Assembly (NCBI GenBank): GCA_947044405.1
Contig: CAMRHE010000018.1
Location: 806,001-870,000, forward strand
Direction: 5' to 3'
DNA: 64,000 nt
Source of the DNA: Leptodactylus fallax
Taxonomy: Eukaryota; Chordata; Amphibia; Anura; Leptodactylidae
The first letter of the stretch is position 1; each line of letters starts with the position of its first letter. Shown here in pieces: positions 1,510 to 64,000 of this stretch. The notes under the pieces were generated by a model. The model did not search any database and had not been told where the DNA came from. It worked only from the letters and a program-made list of their open reading frames with translations. The position numbers and the translations under genes were made by a program.

Positions 1510-3111
1510 CAGTCATATGAAAAAGTTTGGGCACCCCTATTAATCTTAATCATTTTTAGTTCTAAATATTTGGGTGTTTGCAACAGCCATTTCAATTTGA
1601 TATATCTAATAACTGATGGACACAGTAATATTTCAGGATTGAAATGAGGTTTATTGTACTAACAGAAAATGTGCAATATGCATTAAACCAAAATTTGACC
1701 GGTGCAAAAATTTGGGTACCCTTATCATTTTATTGATTTGAATACTCCTAACTACTTTTTACTGACTTACTGAAGCACAAAATTGGTTTTGTAACCTCAC
1801 TGAGCTTTGAACTTCATAGCCAGGTGTATCCAATCATGAGAAAAGGTATTTAAGGTGGCCAATTGCAAGTTGTTCTCCTATTTGAATCTCCTCTGAAGAG
1901 TGGCATCATGGGCTCCTCAAAACAACTCTCAAATGATCTGAAAACAAAGATTGTTCCACATAGTTGTTCAGGGGAAGGATACAAAAAGTTGTCTCAGAGA
2001 TTTAACCTGTCAGTTTCCACTGTGAGGAACATAGTAAGGAAATGGAAGACCAAAGGGACAGTTCTTGTTAAGCCCAGAAGTGGCAGGCCAAGAAAAATAT
2101 CAGAAAGGCAGAGAAGAAGAATGGTGAGAACAGTCAAGGACAATCCACAGACCACCTCCAAAGAGCTGCAGCATCATCTTGCTGCAGATGGTGTCACTGT
2201 GCATCGGTCAACAATACAGCACACTGTGCACAAGGAGAAGCTGTATGGGAGAGTGATGCGAAAGAAGCCGTTTCTGAAAGCACGCCACAAACAGAGTCGC
2301 CTGAAGTATGCAAAAGCACATTTGGACAAGCCAGCTTCATTTTGGAAGAAGGTCCTGTGGACTGATGAAACAAAGATTGAGTTGTTTGGTCATACAAAAA
2401 GGCGTTATGCATGGAGTCCAAAAAACACAGCATTCCAAGAAAAACACTTGCTACCCACTGTAAAATTTGGTGGAGGTTCCATCATGCTTTGGGGCTGTGT
2501 GGCCAATGCCGGCACCGGGAATCTTGTTAAAGTTGACGGTCGCATGGATTCAACTCAGTATCAGCAGATTCTTGAGAATAATGTACAAGAATCAGTGACG
2601 AATTTGAAGTTACGCCGGGGATGGATATTTCAGCAAGACAATGATCCAAAACACATCTCCAAATCTACTCAGGCATTCATGCAGAGGAACAATTACAATG
2701 TTCTGGAATGGCCATCCCAGTCCCCAGACCTGAATATCATTGAACATCTGTGGGATAATTTGAAGCGGGCTGTCCATGCTCGGCGACCATCAAACTTAAC
2801 TGAACTGGAATTGTTTTGTAAAGAGGAATGGTCAAAAATACCTTCATCCAGGATCCAGGAACTGATTAAAAGCTACAGGAAGCGACTAGAGGCTGTTATT
2901 TTTGCCCATACTTTTGCACCGGTCAAATTTTGGTTTAATGCATATTGCACATTTTCTGTTAGTACAATAAACCTCATTTCAATCCTTAAATATTACTGTG
3001 TCCATCAGTTATTAGATATATCAAATTGAAATGGCTGTTGCAAACACCCAAATATTTAGAACTAAAAATGATTAAGATTAATAGGGGTGCCCAAACTTTT
3101 TCATATGACTG
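1510..3111 (+). mobile_element. Full-length Tc1-like transposon, copy 1 (DD34E family)
   Basis: The element is 1602 bp and is bounded by TA on both sides (1508-1509 and 3112-3113). Both tips read CAGTCATATGAAAAAG on their own strands. The terminal inverted repeats are long, about 200 bp, running from the tip to the ACCGGTGCAAAA block near 1697-1710 and mirrored at 2914-3111. A transposase frame lies between them. A second copy of the same family lies in opposite orientation at 31722-33367. Compared with that copy, this one lacks 47 bp just before the transposase stop codon (junction near 2905), which fuses the reading frame to the right inverted repeat. Confidence 0.95.
1908..3029 (+). CDS. 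Tc1-like transposase with abnormal read-through C-terminus
   Basis: This frame encodes a cut-and-paste DNA transposase expected to act in the nucleus on its own inverted repeats. The start is taken at the ATG of MGSSKQLSND at 1908, because that N-terminus begins the family protein; an in-frame ATG at 1863 would add 15 residues. A paired helix-turn-helix region occupies about residues 1-110, with a GRPRK AT-hook-like motif near 59-63. The DDE catalytic residues are D153 (WTDETK), D244 (QQDNDPKH) and E279 (IIEHLW). The 34-residue D-E spacing is typical of Tc1-like enzymes. The family protein, judged from the 32 kb copy, is about 340 residues and ends in GGSTKY. Here a 47-bp deletion removes the last seven codons and the stop, and about 40 residues of inverted-repeat sequence are added. 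The catalytic core is otherwise open, so activity is uncertain. Confidence 0.85.
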   Translation: MGSSKQLSNDLKTKIVPHSCSGEGYKKLSQRFNLSVSTVRNIVRKWKTKGTVLVKPRSGRPRKISERQRRRMVRTVKDNPQTTSKELQHHLAADGVTVHRSTIQHTVHKEKLYGRVMRKKPFLKARHKQSRLKYAKAHLDKPASFWKKVLWTDETKIELFGHTKRRYAWSPKNTAFQEKHLLPTVKFGGGSIMLWGCVANAGTGNLVKVDGRMDSTQYQQILENNVQESVTNLKLRRGWIFQQDNDPKHISKSTQAFMQRNNYNVLEWPSQSPDLNIIEHLWDNLKRAVHARRPSNLTELELFCKEEWSKIPSSRIQELIKSYRKRLEAVIFAHTFAPVKFWFNAYCTFSVSTINLISILKYYCVHQLLDISN

Positions 3112-18505: not shown

Positions 18506-20072
18506 CAGTCATGGCCAAAAGTTTTGAGAATGACACAAATATTATATTTTCACATGATCTGCTGCCCTCTGGTTTTTATGTGTGTTTGTCAGATGTTTTT
18601 ATCACATACAGAAATATAATTGCATTCATATTATGAGTAACAGAAGCTTATATTGACAGTTAGAATGAGTTAATGCAGCAAGTCAATATTTGCAGTGTTG
18701 ACCCTTCTTCTTCAGGACCTCTGCAATTCTCCCTGGCATGCTCTCAATCAACTTCTGGACCAAATCCTGACTGATAGCAGTCCATTCTTGCAGAATCAAT
18801 GCTTTAATTTTGTCTGAATTTGTTGGTTTTTGTTTGTCCACCCATCTCTTGATGATTGACCACAAGTTCTCAATGGGATTAAGATCTGGGGAGTTTCCAG
18901 GCCATGGACCCAAAATCTCTATGTTTTGTTCCCTGAGCCATTTAGTTATCACCTTTGCTTTATGGCAAGGTGCTCCATCATGCTGGAAAAGGCATTGTTG
19001 AGCGCCAAACTGCTCTTGGACGGTTGGGAGAAGTTGCTCTTGGAGGACATTCTGGTACCATTCTTTATTCATGGCTGTGTTTTTAGGCAAGACTGTGAGA
19101 GAGCCGATTCCCTTGGCTGAGAAGCAACCCCACACATGAATGGTTTCAGGATGCTTTACAGTTGGCATGAGACAAGACTGGTGGTAGCGCTCACCTCTTC
19201 TTCTCCGAATAAGCTGTTTTCCAGATGTTCCAAACAATCGAAAAGGGGATTCATCAGAGAAAATGACTTTACCCCAGTCCTCAGCAGTCCACTCCCTGTA
19301 CCTTTTGCAGAATATCAGTCTGTCCCTGATGTTTTTTCTGGAGAGAAGTGGCTTCTTTGCTGCCCTCCTTGAGACCAGGCCTTGCTCCAAGAGTCTCCGC
19401 CTCACAGTGCGTGCAGATGCACTCACACCTGCCTGCTGCCATTCCTCAGCAAGCTCTGCACTGCTGGTAGCCCGATCCCGCAGCTGAAACACTTTTAAGA
19501 GACGGTCCTGCCGCTTTCTGGTCTTTCTTGGGCGCCCTGGAGCCTTTTTGGCACCAATGGAACCTCTCTCCTTGAAGTTCTTGATGATGCGATAGATTGT
19601 TGACTGAGGTGCAATCTTTCTAGCTGCAATACTCTTCCCAGTTAGGCCATTTTTGTGCAGTGCAATGATGACTGCACGTGTTTCTTTAGAGATAACCATG
19701 GTTAACAGAAGAGAAACAATGATGGCAAGCACCAGCCTCCTTTTAAAGTGTCCAGTGGTGTCATTCTTACTTAATCATGACAGATTGATCTCCAGCCCTG
19801 TCCTCATCAACACCCACACCTGTGTTAATGGAGCAATCACTGAAACGATGTTAGGTGGTCCTTTTAAGGCAGGGCTGCAATGATGTTGAAATGTGTTTTG
19901 GGGGATAAAGTTCATTTTCTAGGCAAATATTGACTTTGCAAGTAATTGCTGTTAAGCTGATCACTCTTTATAACATTCTGGAGTATATGCAAATTGCCAT
20001 TAGAAAAACTGAAGCAGTAGACTTTGTAAAAATTAATATTTGTATCATTCTCAAAACTTTTGGCCATGACTG
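18506..20072 (-). mobile_element. Apparently intact Tc1/mariner element, DD35E (Traveler-like)
   Basis: The 1567-bp element is flanked by TA (18504-18505 and 20073-20074). Both tips read CAGTCATGGCCAAAAG on their own strands. The inverted repeats match for about 40 bp with one mismatch, then diverge. The minus strand carries one uninterrupted transposase gene with about 373 bp upstream and 177 bp downstream inside the element. No stop, frameshift or deletion is visible, unlike all other DNA transposons in this window, which suggests a younger insertion. Confidence 0.95.
18683..19699 (-). CDS. Tc1/mariner transposase, DD35E, 338 aa, intact
   Basis: Predicted DNA transposase. The start is set at MVISKETRAV (19699); an upstream in-frame ATG at 19732 would add 11 residues that look like untranslated leader. 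An N-terminal helix-turn-helix region covers about residues 1-110, with a GRPRK motif at 55-59. Catalytic residues are D149 (FSDESPF), D241 (FQHDGAPCH) and E277 (NPIENLW). Thirty-five residues separate D241 from E277, compared with 34 in the other Tc1-like enzymes here. From memory, DD35E is the signature of the vertebrate Traveler family; I could not check this by alignment. The HDGAPCH block is more mariner/Bari-like than the QQDNDPKH block of Tc1 relatives. The full frame and complete catalytic triad make it a candidate for a functional enzyme. Confidence 0.9.
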   Translation of the reverse strand: MVISKETRAVIIALHKNGLTGKSIAARKIAPQSTIYRIIKNFKERGSIGAKKAPGRPRKTRKRQDRLLKVFQLRDRATSSAELAEEWQQAGVSASARTVRRRLLEQGLVSRRAAKKPLLSRKNIRDRLIFCKRYREWTAEDWGKVIFSDESPFRLFGTSGKQLIRRRRGERYHQSCLMPTVKHPETIHVWGCFSAKGIGSLTVLPKNTAMNKEWYQNVLQEQLLPTVQEQFGAQQCLFQHDGAPCHKAKVITKWLREQNIEILGPWPGNSPDLNPIENLWSIIKRWVDKQKPTNSDKIKALILQEWTAISQDLVQKLIESMPGRIAEVLKKKGQHCKY

Positions 20073-23663: not shown

Positions 23664-23832
23664 AAAATGCAGGTTTCAACTTACAGTATGGTAAAGTAAA
23701 ATTTGATGTGGGCTAAAATGAGGATTCCAATCACTTTTCCAACTTATCCCAACTGTCATTGAGAAAAAGTTATAGCAGAGCTAAATTGTGATTCCAGTTT
23801 AAGGCTGGAAGAGCTATAATTCCCCCCCAATT

Positions 23833-24623
23833 CGCTCCCATGTTACGGCCATATATCAGAGCCGATGGGGAGCGGGAGGAATTATAGCTCTTCAAAAAAC
23901 GCTGCTACACAGTTTTCTATTGCCAAAAATGGTGCTATATTAGTTTAGTGAATTTTATACCTCTGATGACAGGAATAGGGAGCTGGAGGAACTATAGCTC
24001 TTTAAACAAAAACGCTGCTATATAGTTTCCTACTTCCAAAAAAATGGTGCTATATTATTTTAGTGAATTTTACACCTCTGATGATAGGATAGAAATTATT
24101 TTTATTCTAGAAACGCGTCAGTTGTTTTCTGATAGGTATAAAGTGTTCCTTGACAGACGTACATTATCTACTGAGTGCCATATAGGTTATATTTAGGCAC
24201 CCTGTTTGTTCTTTTTTAGCGCCGTCCATTTTTCAGTCAGGTATCTTATGATAGATGAAAAGTACCTTATGATATATGTAGGCTACCTGCTGAGTGTCAT
24301 ATGGATATAACGGTCAGGTGTGTCTTGATATACGACGGATGCCCTATGACAAACGTATTTTATCTGTTGAATGCTATACAGATAATGTATGGGCACTATG
24401 TTTTTGCAGTGCCATCTATTGACCAGCTTTAGGTTGTTATGCCGCGGGTCAATATTATGGATTAGTGCTATTTCACATGTTTGAAGTGACAGATTTATTA
24501 TTTTAACTTAGATTCAATAAAGATTTATGTATTTTAAATATACCTTATTAGGATAGTGACATATCCCATATTTTCCATAATTGATTCTCGGTATTTACAA
24601 CTTATTTTTGTTATTTAGTATTT
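23833..24623 (+). repeat. PLE 5' pseudo-LTR
   Basis: It begins CGCTCCCATGTTACGGCCAT and runs to TTATTTAGTATTTT, aligning with 28221-29423 except for small indels and the MITE inserted in the right copy. It contains a 115-bp tandem duplication. The CTGATGA box occurs at 23963 and again at 24078, but only the second is followed by a full hammerhead. A TTCAATAAAGA polyadenylation-like motif lies near 24512. It probably supplies promoter and ribozyme functions. Confidence 0.9.
24072..24125 (+). ncRNA. Hammerhead ribozyme in 5' pLTR
   Basis: The conserved CUGAUGA box is at 24078-24084. Stem II pairs TAGGATA (24085-24091) with TATTCTA (24103-24109): seven pairs, one of them G-U, and an 11-nt loop. 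GAAA follows at 24110-24113. Stem III is only ACGCGT, which is self-complementary and leaves no loop, so a dimeric fold is more likely than a monomeric one. The cleavage triplet GTC ends at 24119. Stem I pairs ACACCT (24072-24077) with AGTTGT (24120-24125), five of six positions. Hammerheads in PLE pLTRs are known, so the call rests on both motif and context. Confidence 0.82.
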
Positions 24624-24630
24624 TTGGTTC

Positions 24631-27600
24631 TTGGTTTTTGTCTTATTGGGGATGGCAGGTTTTCTTACGGGATCCATTAATACTAATCAATGGTTATGTG
24701 ATTCAAAGGAGGCATTTTCAAAGTGTGACTTGTCTTCCACGTCTCAGAATCTTAGTATATCAGCCACTTTTCGTAAATTGACAAAAATCTACAAGTATCA
24801 TTTGAGATCTTTTTGGGAGGTTCAGACTCTGGAGGCTTATATCAAAAACAACATAGTACCCAGAGGCTTGCGTATTAATATTCTTCCAGCCCAGCGCCTA
24901 TGCTCACCCACATCACCAAAAATGGGAAAAAGAATCAATTGACTCCTCCATTAAGTTGATGCATTTACTGTTAGAGGAGGAGAAATTGATTCTGAATGCA
25001 TCTGCACAGGAGTTAAATGAACAAATTGAGGCCACTAAGAAATTTTCTAATAGTACAGAGTACGAACGTAGAGAGTGTAGTCTCCAACAGACAGTTGAAC
25101 GATTTATCTCCTATATGAAAGAGAGAAAACACATTCAATTTAAACGTGATCTTTTACATTTTAAAGAGGGACGAATTTTTGACTTTTCTATTAAGGAGGG
25201 TAATAGGCGTGATATAGAAACAGATCTATCCTCATCTGAATGTGAGGCATCGGATGGGTAAACTCCTCAAGCAGGAAGTAAAAAAGGAAAAAGTTTACAT
25301 CATAGTTCCTCTAATCCATCTAATTCACCATCAACTATTTATCCTAATAGAAGAGGTAGAAGTAGAGGGACAACCCAGAATACAAGAGGGGGTTTTTTAG
25401 CCCAGGGTCCACCAATATCGGATTACCTACTTCGAACAAGGAAATGAGGCCTTTAAACAGTGGCTCAGATAATCAAATGCAGATCATTAATTTATCATCT
25501 AGAACCCTGACTATGGAAGAAGAGGGTTTGCTTAAGAGAGGTTTATTCTTTGTACCAGCACCCTCTTTTGATCTTTTTGGTTGGTGAAAGACATTAATTT
25601 GTTTTGTAGACGTTTAAGGTTGAAAAAATTTTTTAAATTTCAATGCTCTGGGCATTGAAGAATGTGATCTTCCAGATTTACAACTATTGGAAAGTCTTTG
25701 GGAAGAAGGTCAGCGTGATGTGGGTGAGGGACCATTTACAAAGTTACGTAATCCCTCAAAAAAAATTCCCCTCTTAACAGATGATACGGCAATTGACATC
25801 TTTGCCAAGGTGGTTACAGAGAAATTATCTGAAATTGATACGAGACATCTGACATCTGGATATAATTTGACATATGATGAACAATTAATTTTGAAGAACC
25901 TGGAAGGGGATGAGTCAATTGTAATAAAGCCAGCAGATAAAGGGGGGAATCTAGTTATTTTGGATCGTGATATGTACATCAGAATGTGTAAAAATATTCT
26001 TGATGATAGGAAATGTTATGAGGTTCTATCTCGTGATCCCACGCCATGCTACCTCTCAAGGTTGAGAACTATTTTGTTAAAGGCCAAGGAAGACCATCTC
26101 AATAATGATAGTGAATTTTCATTTTTGTTACCTGTCCATCCGGTTAGAGCCACATTTATGCTCTCCCAAAAATTCACAAAGGGTTTAATCCGATGAAAGG
26201 GAGACCCATAGTAGCATGGATTGATAGTGTCACTCAAAAGGCTTCACTCTACATTGATGAGATATTAAGGCCTTTTGTTTTATCATTGCCTTCATATATT
26301 AAAAATACTACAGACATTCTTAAAAGTCTGGAAGATCTTACTGTACCTCCCGATACTTGGCTGGGTAGCCTGGATGTGGAGGCCCTCTACAGCTCCATAC
26401 CCCATGATAAGGGGTGTGGAGCTGTGGGGGACTTCTTAAAAATGAGGGGTAACCACTTAGTGGCCCATAATGGATTTGTTTTGGAGCTTCTTGATTTCGT
26501 GCTCTCTAACAACACGTTTTTATTTGACCACCACTTCTTCCACCAGCTCAGAGGCGTAGCCATGGGGAGTCCATGTGTGCCTATGTACGCAAATTTATAT
26601 CTGGGCTGGTGGGAGAAGGAAGTGGTCTTTTCAGAGATGATGGAACAATGTTCATCAATGATTCTGATGTGGATTAGATTTATAGATGATGTGTTGGTGC
26701 TATGGAGTGGTACGAAGGACCAATATGTAGAGTTTGTTAGATCACTCAACATTAATGACCTTCTCCTATTTTTTACAGTGGATATACAGGCAACATCTAT
26801 TACTTTTTTGGATCTAAAGATTTGTAAATCCCACGATGGAAGACTTACAACAAATATCTTCCGTAAAGAGACAGCTACTAATTGTCTTTTAAATTGGGAG
26901 AGTTGGCACCCAGATTCTCTACGCAGAGGCATCCCAAAGGGACAATTCCTGCGTATTCGCAGGAATTGTACATTATTTTCAGATTACCAAAATGCAGCTG
27001 CAAATCTGCGTAATAGATTTAGAGATAGAGGATATACTTATAGAGTCTTACGAAATGCCTATCAACATGCAACTGCCTGTGAGCGGAGTAGTTTGTTACA
27101 GCCCAGAAGGAGAAATGATAACAATGAGTTACGAATTATTGGTACCTATGATAGGGCTTATTGTGAAGTTAAACATATATTACAAGAATTCTGGAGTATA
27201 TTAAGAACAGATCCTGATGTTGGACCTAGTTTAAATCTTAAACCATCAATTTCTTATCGTAGAGGACCGAATGTTCATGATAGGCTAGTACATAGCCATT
27301 TTAAATAATTGAAACCGGATAATTGGCTACAAAAGCAAGCTGGTGAAATGGTTGGTACATATTGTTGTGGCAAGTGTCGGGCATGTGACTTCGTGCATTT
27401 TAGTAAAACCTTCTCAAGCACCAACACTAAAAGGGAATACCGCAATAAGAATTTTATCAATTGTAAATCCCAGGGAATAGTTCATTTGTTTACCTGCTCC
27501 TGTGGTACCCAGTATGTGGGGAAAACAGTGAGGGAATTCCGCAGAAGGATCCGTGACCATGTAAATAACATTGTGAGACAGGAGGTTACTCCCATTGCTA

Positions 27601-27794
27601 GACACATTTGGAGTGCTCATGGAGGAGAGGCATATAATATGAAATTTCAGGGAATTGAACTTGTGTATCCATCTCCTAGGGGAAGTGATTTTGATTGTAA
27701 AGTTTTACAACGAGAGGCACGATGGATTTTTTATTTAAAAACAGTTAAACCTCTAAGGCTTAATGACACTATTTCTTATACTTCATTCATTTAG
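24631..27794 (+). pseudogene. PLE polyprotein: reverse transcriptase plus GIY-YIG endonuclease, broken
   Basis: The remains of one long PLE gene are split by at least three frameshifts (about 24940, 25260-25686 and 26180) and one in-frame TAA at 27306-27308. The N-terminal part has a coiled-coil-like segment rich in E/K (24956-25261) and VPAPSFDLFGW near 25540. The RT part (25687-27308) shows IKPADKGGNLVILDRDMY, motif A SLDVEALYSSIP, GVAMGSPCVPMYANLYLG, and the catalytic box FIDDVLVLW near 26678. The last block (27309-27794) has a CCGKCRAC zinc-binding-like cluster, the endonuclease core CGTQYVGKT with REFRRRIRDH, and REARWIFYL with the likely catalytic Glu. It would have copied PLE RNA by target-primed reverse transcription. 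Present breaks make a full protein unlikely. Confidence 0.9.
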
Positions 27795-28220
27795 TGTCAT
27801 GTGTGATACTGTATGTTTTGCTGGGCTCTCCTTTTGTTTAGTGGCCATAGATACAGGTTTTTATTGTTTCTTTGGCTAGAATTTAATTTTGTCTCGATAT
27901 GTGTTTAGCTAATATATGGGTCCCCTTTTACATTGGTACCTATCTGTGTCTTCCTATTTGCCCCTATATTTGTACCTCATTCTGTTTTGTATTTTGGGTC
28001 CTAATTATATAGTTTTTGTACCTGCGATCGGTGTCCCTATGTTATTATGCAGTAATAGCATGTTTCTATTGTTTACATATTGTTGACGGGACGGGCTCCT
28101 ATGATGTCATTAGTGGTCACCCGTGGTCTCTTTGGTGATAGGCTTATCGATGTGGCTCCCTTTGATTCGCTGTTGTAGACTGGAAGGGGCGTGTCTTTTA
28201 CTTTAAAAGGCCATTGCCCG
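27795..28220 (+). other. PLE 3' untranslated trailer
   Basis: The sequence lies between the coding region stop and the right pLTR. It is T-rich with no open frame of note. Confidence 0.6.
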
Positions 28221-28459
28221 CGCTCCCATGTTACGGTCATATATCAGAGCCGACAGGGAGCGGGGGGAATTATAGCTCTTTAAAAAACGCTGCTACACAG
28301 TTTTCTGTTGCCAAAAATGGTGCTATATTAGTTTAGTGAATTTTATACCTCTGATGACAGGAATAGGGAGCGGGAGGAACTATAGCTCTTTAAACAAAAA
28401 CGCTGCTATATAGTTTCCTACTTCCAAAACAATGGTGCTATATTAGTTTAGTGAATTTT

Positions 28460-28513
28460 ACACCTCTGATGATAGGATAGAAATTATTTTTATTCTAGAA
28501 ACGCGTCAGTTGT
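28460..28513 (+). ncRNA. Hammerhead ribozyme in 3' pLTR
   Basis: The core matches the 5' pLTR ribozyme. CTGATGA is at 28466-28472. Stem II pairs 28473-28479 with 28491-28497, GAAA is at 28498-28501, and the GTC triplet ends at 28507. Stem I pairs 28460-28465 with 28508-28513, with one C/U mismatch. Every core nucleotide is kept in both pLTRs. Confidence 0.82.
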
Positions 28514-28754
28514 TTTCTGATAGATATTAAGTGTTCCTTGACAGACATGCGCTATCTACTGAGTGCCATATAGGTTTGTTCTTTTTTAGTGCTGTCCATT
28601 TTTCAGTCAGGTATCTTATGATAGATGAAAAGTACCTTATGATATATGCAGGCTACCTGCTGAGTGTCATATAGATATAACGATCAGGTGTCTCTTGATA
28701 TACAACAGATGCCCTATGACAAACGTATTTTATCTGTTGAATGCTATACAGATA

Positions 28755-29178
28755 CAGTAATACCTCGTACACTCGCGTTTCCGAATTTGCGAATTCACAG
28801 ATTCGCGATATTTTTTTGGCAACTAACATATATAGATTTTGCTCTTTTTTTTCAGATCTGTGAAATTTAATTAAAAAAACACCTTCGCTATTGGGTAGTA
28901 GCGTCCTGTTCGTTACGTACCCGGTAATTAGTTTCATTTTACTGTGAGTGTATAAGAAAAATGAATGAATGTATTAATATACAGTACTGTACAGTATACT
29001 TTAGTATACTTTAGTATACTGTACAGTACTGTAGGGTAAAGTTTATTGATATTTAGGGGTTAAACATTAGAAATCGGCATTGTAAGCGCTTCTAAGCGCT
29101 TGTACCAAAAATTCGCGATTCCTCGAGATCCGCGACCCGCTCTGTCACCTAACCTCGCGAATGTACGAGGTATTACTA
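28755..29178. repeat. pogo/Tigger-like MITE inserted in PLE pLTR
   Basis: The ends are CAGTAATACCTCGTAC and GTACGAGGTATTACTA, flanked by a TA duplication (28753-28754 and 29179-29180). The uninterrupted left pLTR (CAGATAATGTATGG near 24383) gives the empty site, proving precise insertion at TA. The CAGT tip, TA target and CGCG-rich subterminal sequence resemble pogo/Tigger non-autonomous elements. An internal palindromic patch of TACAGTACTGTA and AGTATACT units lies at about 28980-29035. Confidence 0.88.
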
Positions 29179-29429
29179 TAATGTATGGGCACTCTGTTGT
29201 TTTTGCAGCGCCATCTATTGACAAGCTTTAGGTTGTTATGCCGCGGGTCAATATTATGGATTAGTGCTATTTCACATGTTTGAAGTGACAGATTTATTAT
29301 TTTAACTTTGATTCAATAAAGATTTATATATTTTAAATATACCTTATTAGGATAGTGACATATCCCATATTTTCCATAATTGATTCTGGGTATTTACAAC
29401 TTATTTTTGTTATTTAGTATTTTCAGTTT

Positions 29430-29656
29430 AAGGCTGAGGCCCCATGTTGCGGAAACACAGCTTTTTTTGTTACAGATTGTGCTGCAATATTTTTTTTTAA
29501 AACCAAAGTCGGGAGTGTATTTAACAGAAGGGAAATGTCTCAGAGCTTCCTTTATGTTTTCCATTACAAGCCACTCCTGACTTTGGCTCAAAAACCACAG
29601 CAAAATCTACAATAAAAAACATTGCATTTCTGCAACGTGGGGCCTTAGCCTAAGGC
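29430..29656. repeat. MITE family B, copy 1
   Basis: The left tip AAGGCTGAGGCCCCATGTTG and right tip CAACGTGGGGCCTTAGCC form inverted repeats. The interior has AAAGTCGGGAGTG against CACTCCTGACTTT. Relatives lie at 34333-34547 and 34547-34635. Confidence 0.78.
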
Positions 29657-31721: not shown

Positions 31722-33367
31722 CAGTCATATGAAAAAGTTTGGGCAGCCCTATTAATCTTAATCATTTTTAGTTCTAAATATTTGGGTGTTTGCAACAGCC
31801 ATTTCAATTTGATATATCTAATAACTGATGGACACAGTAATATTTCAGGATTGAAATGAGGTTTATTGTACTAACAGAAAATGTGCAATATGCATTAAAC
31901 CAAAATTTGACCGGTGCAAAAGTATGGGCACCTCAACAGAAAAGAGACATTAATATTTAGTAGATCCTCCTTTTGCAAAAATAACAGCCTCTAGTCGCTT
32001 CCTGTAGCTTTTAATCAGTTCCTGGATCCTGGATGAAGGTATTTTTGACCATTCCTCTTTACAAAACAATTCCAGTTCAGTTAAGTTTGATGGTCGCCGA
32101 GCATGGACAGCCCGCTTCAAATTATCCCACAAATGTTCAATGATATTCAGGTCTGGGGACTGGGATGGCCATTCCAGAACATTGTAATTGTTCCTCTGCA
32201 TGAATGCCTGAGTAGATTTGGAGCTGTGTTTTGGATCATTGTCTTGCTGAAATATCCATCCCCGGCGTAACTTCAAATTCGTCACTGATTCTTGTACATT
32301 ATTCTCAAGAATCTGCTGATACTGAGTTGAATCCATGCGACCCTCAACTTTAACAAGATTCCCGGTGCCGGCATTGGCCACACAGCCCCAAAGCATGATG
32401 GAACCTCCACCAAATTTTACAGTGGGTAGCAAGTGTTTTTCTTGGAATGCTGTGTTTTTTTGACGCCATGCATAATGCCTTTTGTATGACCAAACAACTC
32501 AATCTTTGTTTCATCAGTCCACAGGACCTTCTTCCAAAATGAAGCTGGCTTGTCCAAATGTGCTTTTGCATACCTCAGGCGACTCTGTTTGTGGCGTGCT
32601 TTCAGAAACGGCTTCTTTCGCATCACTCTCCCATACAGCTTCTCCTTGTGCAAAGTGTGCTGTATTGTTGACCGATGCACAGTGACACCATCTGCAGCAA
32701 GATGATGCTGCAGCTCTTTGGAGGTGGTCTGTGGATTGTCCTTGACTGTTCTCACCATTCTTCTTCTCTGCCTTTCTGATATTTTTCTTGGCCTGCCACT
32801 TCTGGGCTTAACAAGAACTGTCCCTGTGGTCTTCCATTTCCTTACTATGTTGCTCACAGTGGAAACTGACAGGTTAAATCTCTGAGACAACTTTTGTATC
32901 CTTCCCCTGAACAACTATGTTGAACAATCTTTGTTTTCAGATCATTTGAGAGTTGTTTTGAGGAGCCCATGATGCCACTCTTCAGAGGAGATTCAAATAG
33001 GAGAACAACTTGCAATTGGCCACCTTAAATACCTTTTCTCATGATTGGATACACCTGGCTATGAAGTTCAAAGCTCAGTGAGGTTACAAAACCAATTTTG
33101 TGCTTCAGTAAGTCAGTAAAAAGTAGTTAGGAGTATTCAAATCAATAAAATGATAAGGGTACCCAAATTTTTGCACCGGTCAAATTTTGGTTTAATGCAT
33201 ATTGCACATTTTCTGTTAGTACAATAAACCCATTTCAATCCTGAAATATTACTGTGTCCATCAGTTATTAGATATATCAAATTGAAATGGCTGTTGCAAA
33301 CACCCAAATATTTAGAACTAAAAATGATTAAGATTAATAGGGGTGCCCAAACTTTTTCATATGACTG
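31722..33367 (-). mobile_element. Full-length Tc1-like transposon, copy 2 (inverted relative to copy 1)
   Basis: The 1646-bp element is flanked by TA (31720-31721 and 33368-33369), with tips CAGTCATATGAAAAAG on both strands. It is the same family as 1510-3111, differing by scattered substitutions and small indels, and it retains the 47 bp missing there. The transposase runs on the minus strand. Confidence 0.95.
31950..32969 (-). pseudogene. Tc1-like transposase, frameshifted
   Basis: The reading starts at ATGGGCTCCTCAAAAC (minus strand, near 32969). An A-run shortened by one base near 32895 breaks the frame before KLSQRFNLSVSTV. A second one-base loss near 32480, in the HTKRRYAW region, shifts it again. 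The middle piece (32417-32914) keeps the DNA-binding region and WTDETKIELF. The last piece (31950-32432) keeps QQDNDPKH, NIIEHLW and the native GGSTKY end at a TAG/TAA-type stop. With both shifts repaired it would be the 340-residue DD34E enzyme, but as it stands it is inactive. Confidence 0.88.
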
Positions 33368-36640: not shown

Positions 36641-37695
36641 TTCCACCTATAGCTCCTCTACATCCCAAAACACTGGCAGTTTTCATCCAACTCATCAAGA
36701 AGAGGAAGACGAGAAAGTCTTGGACATTAAGGAATATTGCTCTCAGCAGATGCCACATGGCTCCCAGAGAATGGGATTTGTGTCAGTGAACAAGACATGG
36801 TTGACAATACAGAAAGACAGCGTGGTATATTATGTGTTACAACAGAGGAGGAAGAGGAACACAGAACCCTGACTCAACATTTGTGATTTACTGCTTTCAA
36901 AAACAGAATGACAACACTGAGCTACTGGCGGGGCTGTCAAGACCAGAAGTAGCGGTGCTGTTGCTATCCACATTCTTATAGTTCCACCCCCTCCCTTTGT
37001 CTGTACCCTGCCCTGTTTTTTCCAGTCATTTTACTGCACACTGCTTAAATATAATAGCGATTGGCAACAATTCTGTGTATGCCTTTTGTTTTTTTTTTGT
37101 TTTTTGTTTTTTTTTACAAAAAACAATTTAAAAAAAATAAAAAGCACTAAAAGGATGACCTGGTCAGTCACTAGAACTGTGTCAGTCAGCTTGTATTTTT
37201 TTTTGCCATTAAAAGGGTGCCAGTTTGTATGTATATTGGATAACCAAAAAAAAGCCTTAACAAACAAAGTTTTTTTCAGATTAGCACACTCCATCGCACT
37301 GTGTATTAGGGAAGCAGAGCAGAAAGAACCCTTATATAACAAATTTTGTTTAGATTTTTTTTTTTAGCACAGGCTGCAAGACTGTATATAACTAATATTT
37401 TTTTTAAATTAGCACACTTCATTACACTGTGCTATATAAAGGTTTTTTTTATGCCCTGCTTACCCAATACAGAGTGTGACGAAGTGTGCTAATCTGAAAA
37501 AAATATTAGTTTCTCAAGTGCTTTTTTTTGTTGCTGCTCATATATACAGTCTTGCAGCCTGTTCTTATCTAAAAAAAATGTCTGTTATATAAGGGTTTTT
37601 TCTGCTGTTTCCCTAATACACAATGTGATGGAGTGTGCTAGTATGAAAAAAATATTATTTTCTTAAGCTTTTTTGTTGCTGCTCATATATACAAT

Positions 37696-38084
37696 GCTTA
37701 GTAGAGGGCGAAAGGCAATTTAAAACTCTACACACCTTCACTGGTGCTCTCCTCAAGGAGAGATGTCTCTGTCCATAACCCACTCATTGCCTCCCACAAA
37801 GCCAGCCAGTTAATTTTGCTCTGCACTGACGAGGGACAAAAATCCCGAAACAGCGCTGTATGCAGATAAATGAAATTGGCTTGGCTAAAATCCCTTTTGC
37901 TGTCTCAAGACTCGGTGAGTCAAAAGCAAATTGAGGATCTGTTACATCCAACAGAGGGCGCATGAGCTCCCAGCTCCTTTCCCATAATGCCTTGTGATAT
38001 GTAGATGCTTAGTAGAGGGCGAAAGGCAATTTAAAACTCTACACACCTTCACTGGTGCTCTCCTCAAGGAGAGATGTCTCTGTC
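37696..38084 (+). mobile_element. Candidate retrozyme: 1.25-mer of a 311-bp ribozyme-bearing unit
   Basis: A 311-bp unit (37696-38006) begins GCTTAGTAGAGGGCGAAAGG and is followed directly by the first 78 bp of a second identical unit (38007-38084). The two partial copies match base for base over this stretch. The whole insert is flanked by a perfect 12-bp duplication, CATATATACAAT (37684-37695 and 38085-38096), so it entered as one piece. The full unit contains a hammerhead ribozyme at 37820-37866. There is no open frame, LTR or microsatellite tail. Partially repeated units, one ribozyme per unit and target duplications are the known traits of small non-autonomous metazoan retrozymes, which are thought to spread through circular RNA copied by a helper reverse transcriptase. 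A tRNA-like promoter is not evident. Confidence 0.78.
37820..37866 (+). ncRNA. Type I hammerhead ribozyme
   Basis: All core positions are present. CTGACGA is at 37826-37832. Stem II pairs GGGA (37833-37836) with TCCC (37843-37846) around a CAAAAA loop. GAAA is at 37847-37850. Stem III is ACAGCGCTGT (37850-37859), a tight hairpin or a self-dimerising palindrome. The cleavage triplet GTA ends at 37860. Stem I pairs TCTGCA (37820-37825) perfectly with TGCAGA (37861-37866) and is open toward the rest of the unit, which defines type I. The chance of this full arrangement at random is low. Confidence 0.88.
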
Positions 38085-38410
38085 CATATATACAATCTTG
38101 CAGCCTGTTCTAATCTAAAAAAAAACCCTCTGTTTTATAACGGGTTTTTATGCTCTGCTCACCAAATACTGATTTTTTTTTTAGATTCGCACAGGCTGTA
38201 AGACTTTATATATGAGCAACAACAAAAAAGCTTAAACGAATATTTTTTTAAAATTAGCACACACCATCACACTGTGTATTGAGTGAGCAGAGCTGAAAAA
38301 AACATTAAATAACAGTTTTTTCTGATTAGCCCAGGCTGTTAGACTTCATATTGGGTGAGCAACAAAAAAATGCTTAAATAACAGAGATTTTTTTTTTATC
38401 AGATTAGAGT

Positions 38411-39295
38411 TGGCGCATTCAGCGCTTTACTGTTAGAACAGCCGTTTCTTTGTATTAAATGGAAAATATTTAACTCTTGCCCAATAAAACCATTAAGAAA
38501 GCAGGACTGACTGTCAGTAAAAATTATGTTTAAACATTGTGTATACAGATGAAACTGGTCTATTGCACAATAGACAAAATTAGATTATTGACAATGAAAG
38601 GGTTAACTGTCCTTTGTCTGTGTCTGTAATTCTTTATTAGCGCAGGAATGAAGCAGTCTGGCTCAAACATCACAGATATGCACCCTTACACTGTCCTATC
38701 TATTATTTATATCACTATCTGCCTGTAATTGCTTGAATCTGACTAAATTCTACTATTCCTAACTTGATTGTCTAGGTCTATTGGTTGAAAATTTGTAAGC
38801 TTTTCAAAACTGTGCTCTGAATGATGCAGTGAGATGAGTCACATATCCTTCCTAATCTTCAACATTACTGCAAAGCCTTGGGATCATGCTTACAGCACCT
38901 TATAAAGTATATATGACATCAGCACAGAAAGGGTTCCACCTACTATTGTCTATTGGCTGAGAGTCTGTCAGGTGGTGCTAGAATGTCACATTGATTCACA
39001 AGACAAGTGTCTCTTCTATATTTTTCCTGCGCAATACATGTGGAGGCAGCCTTTTTAGTTCTGCTGAGACTGATCGGCATTTGTTTTTTTTAAAAAACTA
39101 TTTGGAACAATCAGTTGGGACCCTGTTTGTAACGAATTGGTTCTGTCATCTCTATTGATAGTTGTCTACTGCTTGCTGACCTTAGTTTGTGTCCAAGTAG
39201 CAATTTTCTTTTCACATTTAATTATTTTAATTGAAATTTAAATAAAAAAATAATTTAAATCCTCATTATTGTGCTAATGTGAGGAGCCTGTGATA
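38411..39295. other. AT-rich stretch, nothing supported
   Basis: No coding or mobile-element signature was found. Confidence 0.4.
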
Positions 39296-56534: not shown

Positions 56535-58136
56535 CAGTGTGGAAAAAAAGTATTTAGTCAGCCACCAATAGTGCAAGTTCTCCCACTTAAAAAGATGAGA
56601 GAGACCTGTAATTGACATCATAGGTAGACTTCAACTATGAGAGACAAAATGAGAAAACAAATCCAGAAAATCACATTATCTGATTTTTTAAGAATTTATT
56701 TGCAAATTATGGTGGAAAATAAGTATTCTGTCATCTACAAACAAGCAAAATTTCTGGCTCTCACAGACCTGTAACTTCTTCTTTAAGAGGCTCCTCTGTC
56801 CTCCACTCATTACCTGTAGTAATGGCACCTGGTTGAAATTGTTATCAGTATAAAAGACACCTGTCCACAACCTCAAACAGTCACACTCCAAACTCCACTA
56901 TGGTGAAGACCAAAGAGCTGTGGAAGGACACCAGAAACAAAATTGTAGACCTGCACCAGGCTGGAAAGACTGAATCTGCAATAGGCAAGCAGCTTGGTGT
57001 GAAGAAATCAACTGTGGGAGCAATAATTAGAAAATGGAAGACATGCAAGACTACTGACAATCTCCCTCGATCAGGGGCTCCATGCAAGATCTCACCCCCT
57101 GGGGTCAATATGATCACAAGAACGGTGAGCAAAAATCCCAGAACCACATGGGGGGACCTAGTGAATGACCTGCAGAAACCTGGGACTAATGTAAGAAAGG
57201 CTACTGTCAGTAACACACTACACCGCCAGGGACTCAGATCCTGCAGTGCCAGTCGTGTCCCCCTGCTTAAGCCAGTACATATCTGGGCCCGTCTGAAGTC
57301 TGCTAGAGAGCATTTGGATATTCCAGAAGAGTATTGGGAGAATGTCATATGGTCAGATGAAACCAAAGTAGAACTGTTTGGTAGAAACACAACTCGTCGT
57401 GTTTGGAGGAGAGTGAATGCTGATTTGCATCCATAGAACACCATACCTACTGTGAAGCATGGAGGTGGCAACATCATGCTTTGGGGCTGTTTCTCTGCAA
57501 AGGGACCAGGACGACTGATTTGTGTACATGAAAGAATGAATGGGGCTATGTATCATGAGATTTTGAGTGCAAACCTACTTCCATCAGCAAGGGCATTGAA
57601 GATGAAACGTGGCTGGGTCTTTCAGCATGACAATGATCCCAAGAACACCTCCAGGGCAATGAAGTAGTGACTTCGTAAGAAGCATTTCAAGGTCCTGGAG
57701 CGGCCTAGCCAGTCTCCAGATCTCAATCCCATAGAAAACCTTTGGAGGGAGTTGAAAGTCCGTGTTGCCCAGCGACAGCCCCAAAACATCACTGCTCTAG
57801 AGGAGATCTGCATGGAGGAATGGGCCAACATACCAGCAACAGTGTGTGCCAACCTTGTGAAGACTTACAGAAAACGTTTGACCTCTGTCATTGCCAACAA
57901 AGGATATATAACAAAGTATTGAAATGAACTTTTGTTATTGACCAAATACTTATTTTCCACCATAATTTTCAATAAATTCTTTAAAAATCAGACAACGTGA
58001 TTTTCTGGATTTGTTTTCTCATTTTGTCTCTCATAGTTGAGGTCTACCTATGATGTCAATTACAGGCCTCTCTCATCTTTTTAAATGGGAGAACTTGCAC
58101 AATTGGTGGCTGACTAAATACTTTTTTTCCCCACTG
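56535..58136 (+). mobile_element. Full-length Tc1-like transposon, third family
   Basis: The 1602-bp element is flanked by TA (56533-56534 and 58137-58138). The tips CAGTGTGGAAAAAAAGTA and TACTTTTTTTCCCCACTG differ at one or two positions. The inverted repeats extend about 180 bp, through AGTCAGCCACCAAT, AAGTTCTCCCA and GAGAGACAAAATGAGAAAAC. One full-length but broken transposase lies inside. Confidence 0.95.
56900..57922 (+). pseudogene. Tc1-like transposase with three nonsense codons
   Basis: The frame begins [16 protein letters not shown] and keeps phase to its native YITKY end at 57922. It is interrupted by TAG at 57434-57436 (after NADLHP) and by consecutive TAG and TGA at 57665-57670. 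The DDE signature is otherwise visible: D in [11 protein letters not shown] in FQHDNDPK and E in NPIENLW, with 34 residues between the last two counting the stop codons. There are no frameshifts. All three stops are explainable by single substitutions, so this copy died recently or by few hits. About 340 codons in total. Confidence 0.9.
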
Positions 58137-61258: not shown

Positions 61259-62412
61259 CAGTGCCTTGCGAAAGTATTCGGCCCCCTTGAACTTTTTAAC
61301 TGTTTGACACATTTCAGGCTTCAAACATAAGGATATAAAATTTTAATTTTTTGGTGAAGAATCAACAACAAGTGGGACATAATCGTGAAGTGGAACGAAA
61401 TTTATTGGATATTTTAAACTTTTGTAAAAAATAAAAAACTGAAAAGTGGGGCGTGCCAAATTATTCGGCCCCCTTAAGTTAATACTTTGTAGCACCACCT
61501 TTTGCAGCGATTACAGCTGCAAGTCGCTTGGGGTATGTATCTATCAGAGAGACTGAAATTCTTGCCCATTCTTCCTTGGAAAACAGCTCGAACTCAGTGA
61601 GGTTGGATGGAGAGTGTTTGTGAACAGCAGTTTTCAGCTCTTTCCACAGATTCTCGATTGGATTCAGGTCCGGACTTTGACTTGGCCATTCTAACACCTG
61701 GATACGTTTATTTGTGAACCATTCCATTGTAGATTTAGCTTTATGTTTGGGCTCATTGTCTTGTTGGAAGATAAATCTCCGTCCCAGTCTCAGGTCTTTT
61801 GCAGACTCCAACAGGTTTTCTTCCAGAATGGTCCTGTATGTATTTGGCTCCATCCATCTTCCCATCAATTTTAACCATCTTCCCTGTCCCTGCTGAAGAA
61901 AAGCAGGCCCAAACCATGATGCTGCCACCACCATGTTTGACAGTGGGGATGGTGTGTTCAGGGTGATGAGCTGTGTTGCTTTTACGCCAAACATATCGTT
62001 TTGCATTGTGGCTAAAAAGTTCGATTTTGGTTTCATCTGACCAGAGCACCTTCTTCCACATGTTTGGTGTGTCTCCCAGGTGGCTTGTGGCAAACTTTAA
62101 ACGAGACTTTTTATGGATATCTTTGAGAAATGGCTTTCTTCTTGCCACTCTTGCATAAAGGCCAGATTTGTGCAGTGTACGACTGATTGTTGTCCTATGG
62201 ACAGACTCTCCCACCTCAGCTGTAGATCTCTGCAGTTCATCCAGAGTGATCATGGGCCTCTTGGCTGCATCTCTGATCAGTCTTCTCCTTGTTTGAGATG
62301 AAAGTTTAGAGGGACGGCCGGGTCTTGGTAGATTTACAGTGGTCTGATACTCCTTCCATTTCAATATGATCGCTTGCACAGTGCTCCTTGGGATGTTTAA
62401 AGTTAGGTTGGT
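61259..62412 (-). mobile_element. 5'-truncated Tc1-like transposon fused to a LINE
   Basis: The left tip CAGTGCCTTGCGAAAGTATT is preceded by TA (61257-61258). The transposase reads on the minus strand and its beginning, together with the other inverted repeat, is missing. Homology begins at NIPRSTVQAIILKW near 62410, where L2-like LINE sequence ends. It is a sister family to the fragment at 1-349. Confidence 0.88.
61479..62412 (-). pseudogene. Tc1-like transposase lacking its N-terminus, frameshifted
   Basis: The remaining protein starts at NIPRSTVQAI, inside the first helix-turn-helix, and has lost roughly the first 25-30 residues and the start codon. GRPSKLSSQ, LWSDETKIELF, GGGSIMVWACFS, FIFQQDNEPKH and NPIENLWKEL are all present. 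A 4-bp tandem duplication (GTATGTAT near 61836-61843) shifts the frame between KMDGAKY and RTILEENLL. The end is GGATKY at 61479. The open frame 61753-62496 begins in LINE sequence and crosses the junction, so its N-terminal part is not transposase. Confidence 0.88.
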
Positions 62413-64000
62413 GTTGGTTGTACATCTTGATGGCAGTGGGGAGGAAAGACTTCCGATAGCGCTCCTTCTCACACTTAGGGTGAAGTAGTTGGTCACTGAC
62501 AGTACTGTCCAGCGCTATCACAGTCTCATGCATGGGATGGGACTTATTCTCCCGCATGGAGCTCACCATGTACAGTATCTTTCTGTCACCCACCACCTGC
62601 ACTGGGTCCAGTGGGCTCCCCAGGACAGAGCTGGCCCTTCTAATCAGCTTGTCAAGTTTATTTCTATCTCTGGTTGATATACTGCTCCACCAGCAGGCCA
62701 CTCTGAAGAAGATGGCAGGTGCCACTACCAAGTTGAAAAAAGTCCTAAGAAGTACCCCCTGGACTCCAAAGGCTCTAGCCTCCTAAGCAGGTAGAACCTG
62801 CTGTGGCCCTTCCTGTACAGGACCTCCTTGTGATCTGCCCAGTCCAGCTTATTATTAAGGAGCACACCCAGGTACTTATAGGTGTTGACAATCTCAATGC
62901 CCGTCCCCTGGATGTCCACTGGTTTAGGAGAGCATCCGCATTTACGTAAGTCCACCACCATCTCCTTGGTCTTCCCAGCGTTAATCTTTAGGTGGTTCAG
63001 CTGGCACCAGTCCACAAAATCCCGGTACAGCTCTCTGTACTCCCTGTCATCATCGTCTGGGATGAGACCTACTATTGCTGAGTCGTCAGAATACTTCTGT
63101 AGGTAGCAGCTGGATGAGTTGCACCTAAAATCTGCAGTGTACAGTGTGAAGAGGAAAGGGGCAAGAGCTGTACCCTGAGGTGCCCCTGTATTACAGATCA
63201 TGGTATCTGACACACAGTCCCAAGCTCTCACATTCTGAGGTTGGTTTGTGAGGTAGTCTAGGATCCAGTTGGAGATGTGGTAGTCCGCTCCAGCAAGGGC
63301 CAGCTTGTCTCTCAATAGCCCTGGCTGTATGGTCTTTAAAGCACTGGAGAAATCAAAGATCTTCATCAAGTGGGATGTCAATGCTACAGGCCTGTAGTCG
63401 TTGAGGTCCATAGGGTGAGGTTTCTTTGGAGCCGGTACACACAGGAAGATTTCCATAATTCAGGGACAATTTCCAGATCAGGCTCATATTAAACACATAT
63501 GTAATGATACTACACAGCTGATCCCCACAAGCCTTAATTAGCCTTGCACTGATGTTATCCGGCCCTCCTGCTTTCCTCACCTTGATCTTTTTCAGCTCTT
63601 TTCTCACCTGGGCACATGTGAAGGTCAGACTGTGGTCAGATAAAGACAGATTTCTGGATTTACTGGTGTGGTGGGAAGTAGCCGCAGGGGGTGAATTGTG
63701 GTAGGGGGAACTAAAGGACATGCTGGGGTGGGAGGAGCTGGTGTGTGATCAAATCTATTCAAGAATAGATTTAGTTAGTTAAGCCAATTAACATCTGCCT
63801 CTATGTGGGAGACAGACTGTCTATGGCCCGAAATTGACTTAAGCCCATCCCAGACAGCCCTTATGTCTTTTCTTTCCATTTGCTTTTCCATTTTTTTCTT
63901 ATAATTGGCTTTTTCCTGCCTGATTTGACGCCTAAGCTCTTTCTGTATCTGTCTCATCCCCTCCTTATCTCTTGTCTTGAATGACATCTTTTTCTCCTTA
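62413..64000 (-). pseudogene. L2-like LINE ORF2, RT and C-terminal part; runs off the window
   Basis: On the minus strand from the window edge: a K/E-rich segment with WDGLKSISGHR (63775-63987), TCAQVRKELKKIKVRKAGGP (RT start), PMDLNDYRPVALTSHLMK, FDFSSALKTIQP (motif A), NTGAPQGTALAPFLFTLYT, KYSDDSAIVGLI (catalytic box, SDD), HLKINAGKTKEMVVD, YKYLGVLLNNKLDW and, near the end, KERYRKSFLPTAIKMYN. This is the RT of an L2-group non-LTR retrotransposon. About 60-80 residues are deleted between LTSHLMK and FDFSSA (near 63355), and several frameshifts occur (62730, 63450, 63720-63775). The 3' end is cut at about 62413 by the Tc1 piece. Confidence 0.87.

Follow-up and report, generated by a model that had tools for sequence, protein, structure and literature searches.

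Animal retrozymes and their RNA circles have been published, with LINEs or Penelope-like elements (PLEs) proposed as the movers (PMC7229834, Cervera & de la Pena 2020; also PMC7761336). The 311-bp unit from Leptodactylus fallax described here falls within the metazoan retrozyme range of ~170-400 bp and is like the metazoan non-LTR retrozymes, especially those of 331/353 nt in axolotl, with which it shares a length of ~300 bp, a type I hammerhead with a short helix III, the lack of a 150-aa reading frame, partial multimers and target duplications longer than 4 bp (PMC7229834). These relatives are expressed as circles, whereas the 311-nt circle is deduced here from the insertions, and they are described as tandem repeats, whereas half of the insertions reported here have a head-to-head arrangement and 3' ends recurring at two positions (PMC7229834). 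The terms 'inverted', 'head-to-head' and 'microhomology' are absent from the main text of that paper, and among the main texts of open-access papers searched we found none joining 'retrozyme' with 'head-to-head'; the junction evidence and the pairing of two end sites presented below appear to be new.

The plant LTR retrozymes are likewise non-autonomous and carry a hammerhead, but their circular RNA has been shown rather than deduced, and they possess LTRs, a 4-bp target duplication and a type III hammerhead, in contrast to the absence of an LTR, the 12-bp duplication and the type I hammerhead found here (PMC4918200, as described in PMC7229834). We rejected a plant-type LTR retrozyme on the missing LTR-like repeat and the length of the duplication. 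Among PLEs, purified Poseidon from Anolis, a predicted dimer, cleaves and extends the two DNA strands and initiates at two internal positions of the RNA (PMC11167929), and Penelope copies in Adineta are inverted and half-tailed (PMC3846280). The retrozyme would share with these elements the cutting and extension of both strands, and it shares inverted head-to-head flanks, short target duplications and, putatively, two internal start sites, between which PLEs have an optional 'tail'; Poseidon also bears a hammerhead motif (PMC11167929; PMC3846280). PLEs differ in encoding a reverse transcriptase (RT)/endonuclease, whereas the retrozyme encodes nothing recognised. Their start sites are 30-40 nt apart instead of 87 nt, and the start site of Poseidon did not differ between strands, whereas each two-armed retrozyme insertion has one arm of each kind (PMC11167929).

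The window, i.e. the whole 64,000-nt stretch of the L. fallax contig that was analysed, contains one such insertion with the following features (unit positions count from the first base of the insert):

37684-37695, + strand: left copy of the target duplication, 12 bp (CATATATACAAT), a perfect match to the right copy, with an un-inserted paralogue nearby
37696-38006, + strand: lap 1 of the retrozyme unit, 311 bp (unit 1-311)
37773-37787, + strand: site A (unit 78-92), inferred start of reverse transcription, with 45 of 103 sense 3' ends in the genome survey
37820-37866, + strand: type I hammerhead ribozyme, predicted to cut after 37860 (unit 165); core and helix II found, helices I and III assigned by eye
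37989-38006, + strand: site B (unit 294-311, continuing into 1-11), second putative start, with 53 of 103 sense 3' ends
38007-38084, + strand: partial lap 2 (unit 1-78), stopping at site A, with CATA microhomology to the target
38085-38096, + strand: right copy of the target duplication, 12 bp (CATATATACAAT)

The window sequence confirms the structure given in a preliminary description, one 311-bp unit followed by 78 bp identical to its start (37696-38084) within a perfect 12-bp duplication. The repeat of the unit extends to 84 bp, as the target bases AT on the 5' side and CATA on the 3' side also match the unit; since these two bases on the left and four on the right are common to target and unit, there is microhomology at both junctions. 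The target sits in an AT-rich local repeat, of which a second copy at ~37524-37578 contains the site once and insert-free (CATATATACAGT, one base different), indicating that the 12-bp repeat arose by duplication of the target on insertion. The surroundings (37246-38410) consist of AT-rich repeats with many long inverted pairs, part of which gives sub-threshold Rfam miRNA matches.

The hammerhead claimed for the unit was found with its core (CTGACGA at 37826, GAAA) and a 4-bp helix II; helix III (palindrome ACAGC/GCTGT) and the 6-bp helix I (TCTGCA/TGCAGA) were recognised by eye. Rfam returned no hammerhead in the 64-kb window at gathering thresholds and none at E<=1 in 37500-38300. In the longest copy of the survey (L040) Hammerhead_HH9 matched all six laps below threshold (24-28 bits, gathering 52), and in another (L012) no Rfam hammerhead match was obtained in any of about four laps. 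The stated lack of a coding frame and of an LTR also holds, as the insert has no reading frame of at least 150 aa and 37000-39000 has no LTR-like repeat apart from lap 2. We found no second retrozyme copy within the window.

We surveyed the source genome (2.5 Gb, 2215 contigs) for further copies. A query ending at site A gave 1814 first-look candidates, the best 40 of which were scored, and sample 1 comprises 40 insertion sites including the window copy. Sample 2 comprises 29 new loci out of 37 places and was collected with unit 100-290, a query avoiding both end regions; a 71-bp phase-neutral query yielded no candidates in this genome. The 69 insertions, each laid on the circular unit, are thus best-scoring matches and not a random draw, and they are biased in phase: the first query favours ends at A and the second disfavours ends at unit 100-290. 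As the two queries differ in bias, the counts of one-armed copies by end (12 A and 3 B in sample 1, 1 A and 19 B in sample 2) are uninformative on the true usage of the sites. In two-armed copies the shorter arm was not selected by the query, and its ends are the least biased.

In 34 of the 69 loci there are two arms pointing apart (head-to-head), and 35 are one-armed; with half of the copies two-armed, the window copy represents the simpler, one-armed form. Arm pieces range from 0.06 to 6.12 laps, 57 of 104 being longer than one lap, and the longest (L040:1002-2910, 6.12 laps) lies inside a 14-bp duplication. The dispersed copies anticipated by the preliminary description, multimers of varying extent with target duplications of their own (45 of 69 loci), therefore exist, and the presence of partial multimers and of duplications longer than 4 bp supports its reading of the element as a retrozyme.

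The laps and arms of an insertion carry information on its template. The hammerhead cut site is crossed unbroken by 89 of 104 arm pieces, with at least one such piece in each of the 69 loci. In 13 diagnostic columns of sample 1 (40 loci) laps of the same arm agreed in 707 of 730 comparisons and laps of opposite arms in 354 of 359, as opposed to 0.64 expected from independent draws. In six diagnostic columns over all 69 loci opposite arms of the 34 two-armed copies agreed in 110 of 113 comparisons, whereas arms re-paired between loci reached a mean agreement of 0.578 and a maximum of 0.737 in 500 trials. Variants that are otherwise rare recurred in a further lap in 112 of 533 comparisons within an arm and in 52 of 219 between opposite arms, compared with 15.3 expected in 752. 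The six laps of L040 differ from each other by 0.8% and from other loci by 4.5%. As laps and both arms share variants, each insertion was templated by one RNA circle or by one pure RNA species, which puts the earlier proposal of a circular or multimeric template on firmer ground. We infer a circle from this concordance, with which two circles, or a pure multimer, of that RNA would be equally compatible.

The ribozyme core is conserved among the copies, as had been predicted, all 11 core bases being unchanged in 101 of 112 complete laps. The rate of change is 1.2% at core bases as compared with 2.6% over all positions. The hammerhead stretch in its entirety varies more than other parts of the unit (4.6%), a likely reason being that it contains three of the six diagnostic columns.

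The positions at which the arms end are strongly restricted on one side. Of 103 sense 3' ends, 45 map to unit 78-92 (A) and 53 to 294-311 or 1-11 (B), so that 98 lie within 44 nt in total; the remaining five are at unit 66, 72, 170, 276 and 277. Sites A and B are 87 nt apart, and AUA is present at both (unit 80-82 and 302-304). Thirty-three of the 34 two-armed loci combine one end in the A region (60-95) with one in the B region (270-14), in sample 1 (24 of 25) as well as in sample 2 (9 of 9), and 29 of 34 do so under strict windows. The exception is the copy with the end at 170 (L019), and the ends at 66, 72, 276 and 277 belong to four other two-armed copies. The 5' ends, inner or outer, are dispersed over the unit in the 69 loci. 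The expectation that copies would differ in phase is thus borne out for their 5' ends, but not for their sense 3' ends, which fall at two sites and not at random. Inner 5' ends in sample 1 are concentrated near site B (280-310), which was discarded as a query effect, since the sample 1 query would select such ends; by eye, of 21 unselected arms only about 5 have their end in this region. At 33 inner junctions, not counting a two-armed copy in three pieces (L035), the arms overlap by 1-9 nt in 19 cases, are flush in three and are separated by 1-15 nt of filler in 11.

Target duplications of 9-17 bp flank 45 of the 69 insertions, and 24 have no clear duplication. The lengths are 14 and 13 bp (13 loci each, i.e. 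26 of 45), 12 bp (7), 11 bp (4), 9 bp (3), 17 bp (2) and 16, 15 and 10 bp (one each); in simulations a true 13-bp duplication reads mostly as 13 or 14. An exact duplication score of at least 9 was reached by 26 of 40 sample 1 loci, whereas 1560 mismatched pairings of left and right flanks reached it in 0.19% of cases. When both half-sites of the 45 duplications were read inward, the target half-site proved weak but symmetric, T(-4) G/T(-3) N C/T(-1)|T/A(+1) A(+2), with T(-4) in 48, G(-3) in 44, C(-1) in 41, T(+1) in 45 and A(+2) in 40 of 90 half-sites; TG occurs 32 times at -4/-3 versus 4-19 times at ten other offsets. Among A ends 26 of 33, and among B ends 21 of 38, have microhomology of at least 2 nt between target and template, compared with 18% (A) and 24% (B) in 149 simulated insertions without preference. 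This simulation replaced an earlier control (6.4%), which was too lenient because a duplication extended by chance counts as microhomology. Outer 5' ends show microhomology of at least 2 nt in 6 of 16 cases, not clearly above the simulated control. The +1/+2 part of the half-site may partly reflect this pairing with the template.

These data were weighed against three other explanations. If the partial repeat had arisen by local unequal crossing-over or array expansion, inverted arms being later rearrangements or assembly palindromes, tandem laps could follow from that process by itself; the target duplications that individually flank 45 of the 69 copies, in both the one-armed and the two-armed form, the recurrence of outer ends at A and B and the un-inserted paralogue of the window site make this highly improbable, and array expansion by recombination was rejected, in line with the preliminary description. 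A tandem array transcribed into linear multimers could also have provided the template in place of a circle. Multimeric retrozyme RNAs do occur in axolotl (PMC7229834), and six copies (L016, L022, L025, L029, L041 and L042) have laps that over all columns are about as unlike each other as they are unlike other loci. A diverged-array transcript would mix variants, whereas laps and arms share the diagnostic ones almost perfectly, even in these six copies (37/39, 6/6, 54/54, 6/6, 9/9 and 97/103, in the same order), so that we read their excess over all columns as later mutation; given also the near-identity of the six laps of L040, we consider a linear array transcript rather unlikely.

Alternatively, an L1-like LINE enzyme might move the retrozyme, and the head-to-head copies would be products of ordinary twin priming. 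Target duplications of similar size, microhomology and filler at inner junctions and scattered 5' ends would all be in keeping with this. L1 twin priming fixes one end only, whereas 33 of 34 two-armed retrozyme copies have their two outer ends at different ones of two recurrent template sites, and on this ground L1-type twin priming was rejected as first choice. The general L1 target motif is TT/AAAA, in contrast to the symmetric half-site found here, and an A-tail is absent from the 40 junction pairs viewed. Although LINEs are named next to PLEs as candidates in PMC7229834, we regard an L1-like mover as improbable.

A PLE is itself present in the window, with the following organisation:

23795-23807, + strand: left target duplication, 13 bp (CAGTTTAAGGCTG)
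23808-23832, - strand: short inverted (head-to-head) arm, 25 bp; 19 of 20 bases match pseudo-LTR positions 23874-23893 reversed, a score reached by 0 of 500 shuffles
23833-29423, + strand: PLE body with pseudo-LTRs at 23833-24624 and 28221-29423, the latter interrupted
24078 and 28466: hammerhead-like motifs
25624-27794, + strand: broken RT/GIY-YIG-like frames, the coding frame being split into three pieces
29424-29436, + strand: right target duplication, 13 bp

This element (23795-29436) is decayed, and its pseudo-LTR contains ~115-bp sub-repeats. Its RT matches 211 proteins, and among the 120 listed the best named ones are from frogs, which indirectly supports the anuran source of the DNA; some of the matched proteins join PF00078 and PF01541. 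Pfam gave no match for the GIY-YIG-like frame, which we take to be of this type from its motif and from the related proteins joining these two domains. The right pseudo-LTR is interrupted by a segment of ~424 bp (28754-29178) whose ends are inverted (AGTAATACCTCGTACA...) and whose interior holds a 54-bp palindrome; this segment looks like a small DNA transposon. Elsewhere in the window there are frames that presumably encode Tc1/mariner-like transposases (1854-3029, 56837-57436 and, on the - strand, 18683-19774, 31950-32914 and 61479-62514).

The genome carries a heavy PLE load. With the endonuclease frame of the window PLE 16,838 first-look candidates were obtained; among the best 150, which were scored, open frames extend up to 984 aa, suggesting that PLEs may be recently active. 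Opposite-strand PLE neighbours within 10 kb were, by eye, '- then +' in 13 cases and '+ then -' in none of these 150 scored matches. We viewed 11 two-armed PLE loci, of which C258, C169 and C11 had no usable end in the fetched stretch. Eight two-armed PLE insertions with both ends are bounded by direct repeats of 14, 16, 12, 15, 14, 14, 14 and 9 bp. Among 56 mismatched pairs of ends repeats reached at most 9 bp, twice, and never 12-16 bp; thus, the seven duplications of 12-16 bp are real and the 9-bp one is at chance level. According to alignment, one arm stops at the inner start and the other is tailed in seven of the eight insertions, C379 giving no clear arm type. Three more pairs (C97, C102 near 3.217 Mb and C1097) agree with this rule; a further locus (C13) lacks part of one end. 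The PLE start sites are ~23-45 nt apart by eye. One PLE (L078) carries a hammerhead motif of its own; a tRNA match in its left arm (L078:1391-1447, - strand, 32.9 bits) is just over the Rfam gathering threshold (29).

The target duplications of the retrozyme, with a mode of 13-14 bp, are comparable to those of the PLEs, 12-16 bp in seven of eight insertions and 13 bp in the window PLE. An alignment of the retrozyme with the start region of one PLE family revealed no similarity beyond chance (scores of 20 and 22 on the two strands; shuffled sequences have a mean of 18.6 and a 95% point of 24). As no sequence is shared with this family, recognition may be structural or may involve another PLE family, or the attribution may be wrong.

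We consider it probable that the element is a metazoan-type non-LTR retrozyme inserted by two-ended target priming through PLE-type machinery from a 311-nt circle, both the PLE-type enzyme and the circle being deduced from sequence. Hammerhead cleavage of the transcript, followed by circularisation, would yield a circular RNA of 311 nt, circles having been shown for relatives in the literature. A PLE-type RT/endonuclease, presumably acting as a dimer, would then cut both strands ~13 bp apart at a roughly two-fold symmetric site. The two free DNA 3' ends would prime at fixed sites of the circle, A for one end and B for the other, assisted by short target-template pairing, and copying would then cover between 0.06 and 6.1 laps of the circle. 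In the two-armed outcome the two cDNAs would be joined, often via microhomology or a short filler, and in the one-armed outcome, seen in the window copy, a single cDNA would join the far target end directly.

Beyond this locus we lean slightly towards the view that animal retrozymes are RNA-circle parasites of PLEs, and that the two protomers of a symmetric PLE dimer use a single circle simultaneously, each nicking one strand and starting at its own site. Every two-armed insertion would thereby receive one A and one B end, and the same rule would explain the one-sided 'tail' of PLEs.

The mover of animal retrozymes, and whether the circle itself is copied, were left open in the 2020 description, as far as its main text goes (PMC7229834). 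Insertion junctions answer much of this from sequence data, before any further experiment, laps and arms reporting a single template and end positions reporting the priming sites. The A+B pairing rule offers an explanation, open to testing, for why PLEs are inverted and half-tailed; if it is true, the circle of 311 nt, having two defined starts, would be a minimal substrate for studies of PLE target priming.
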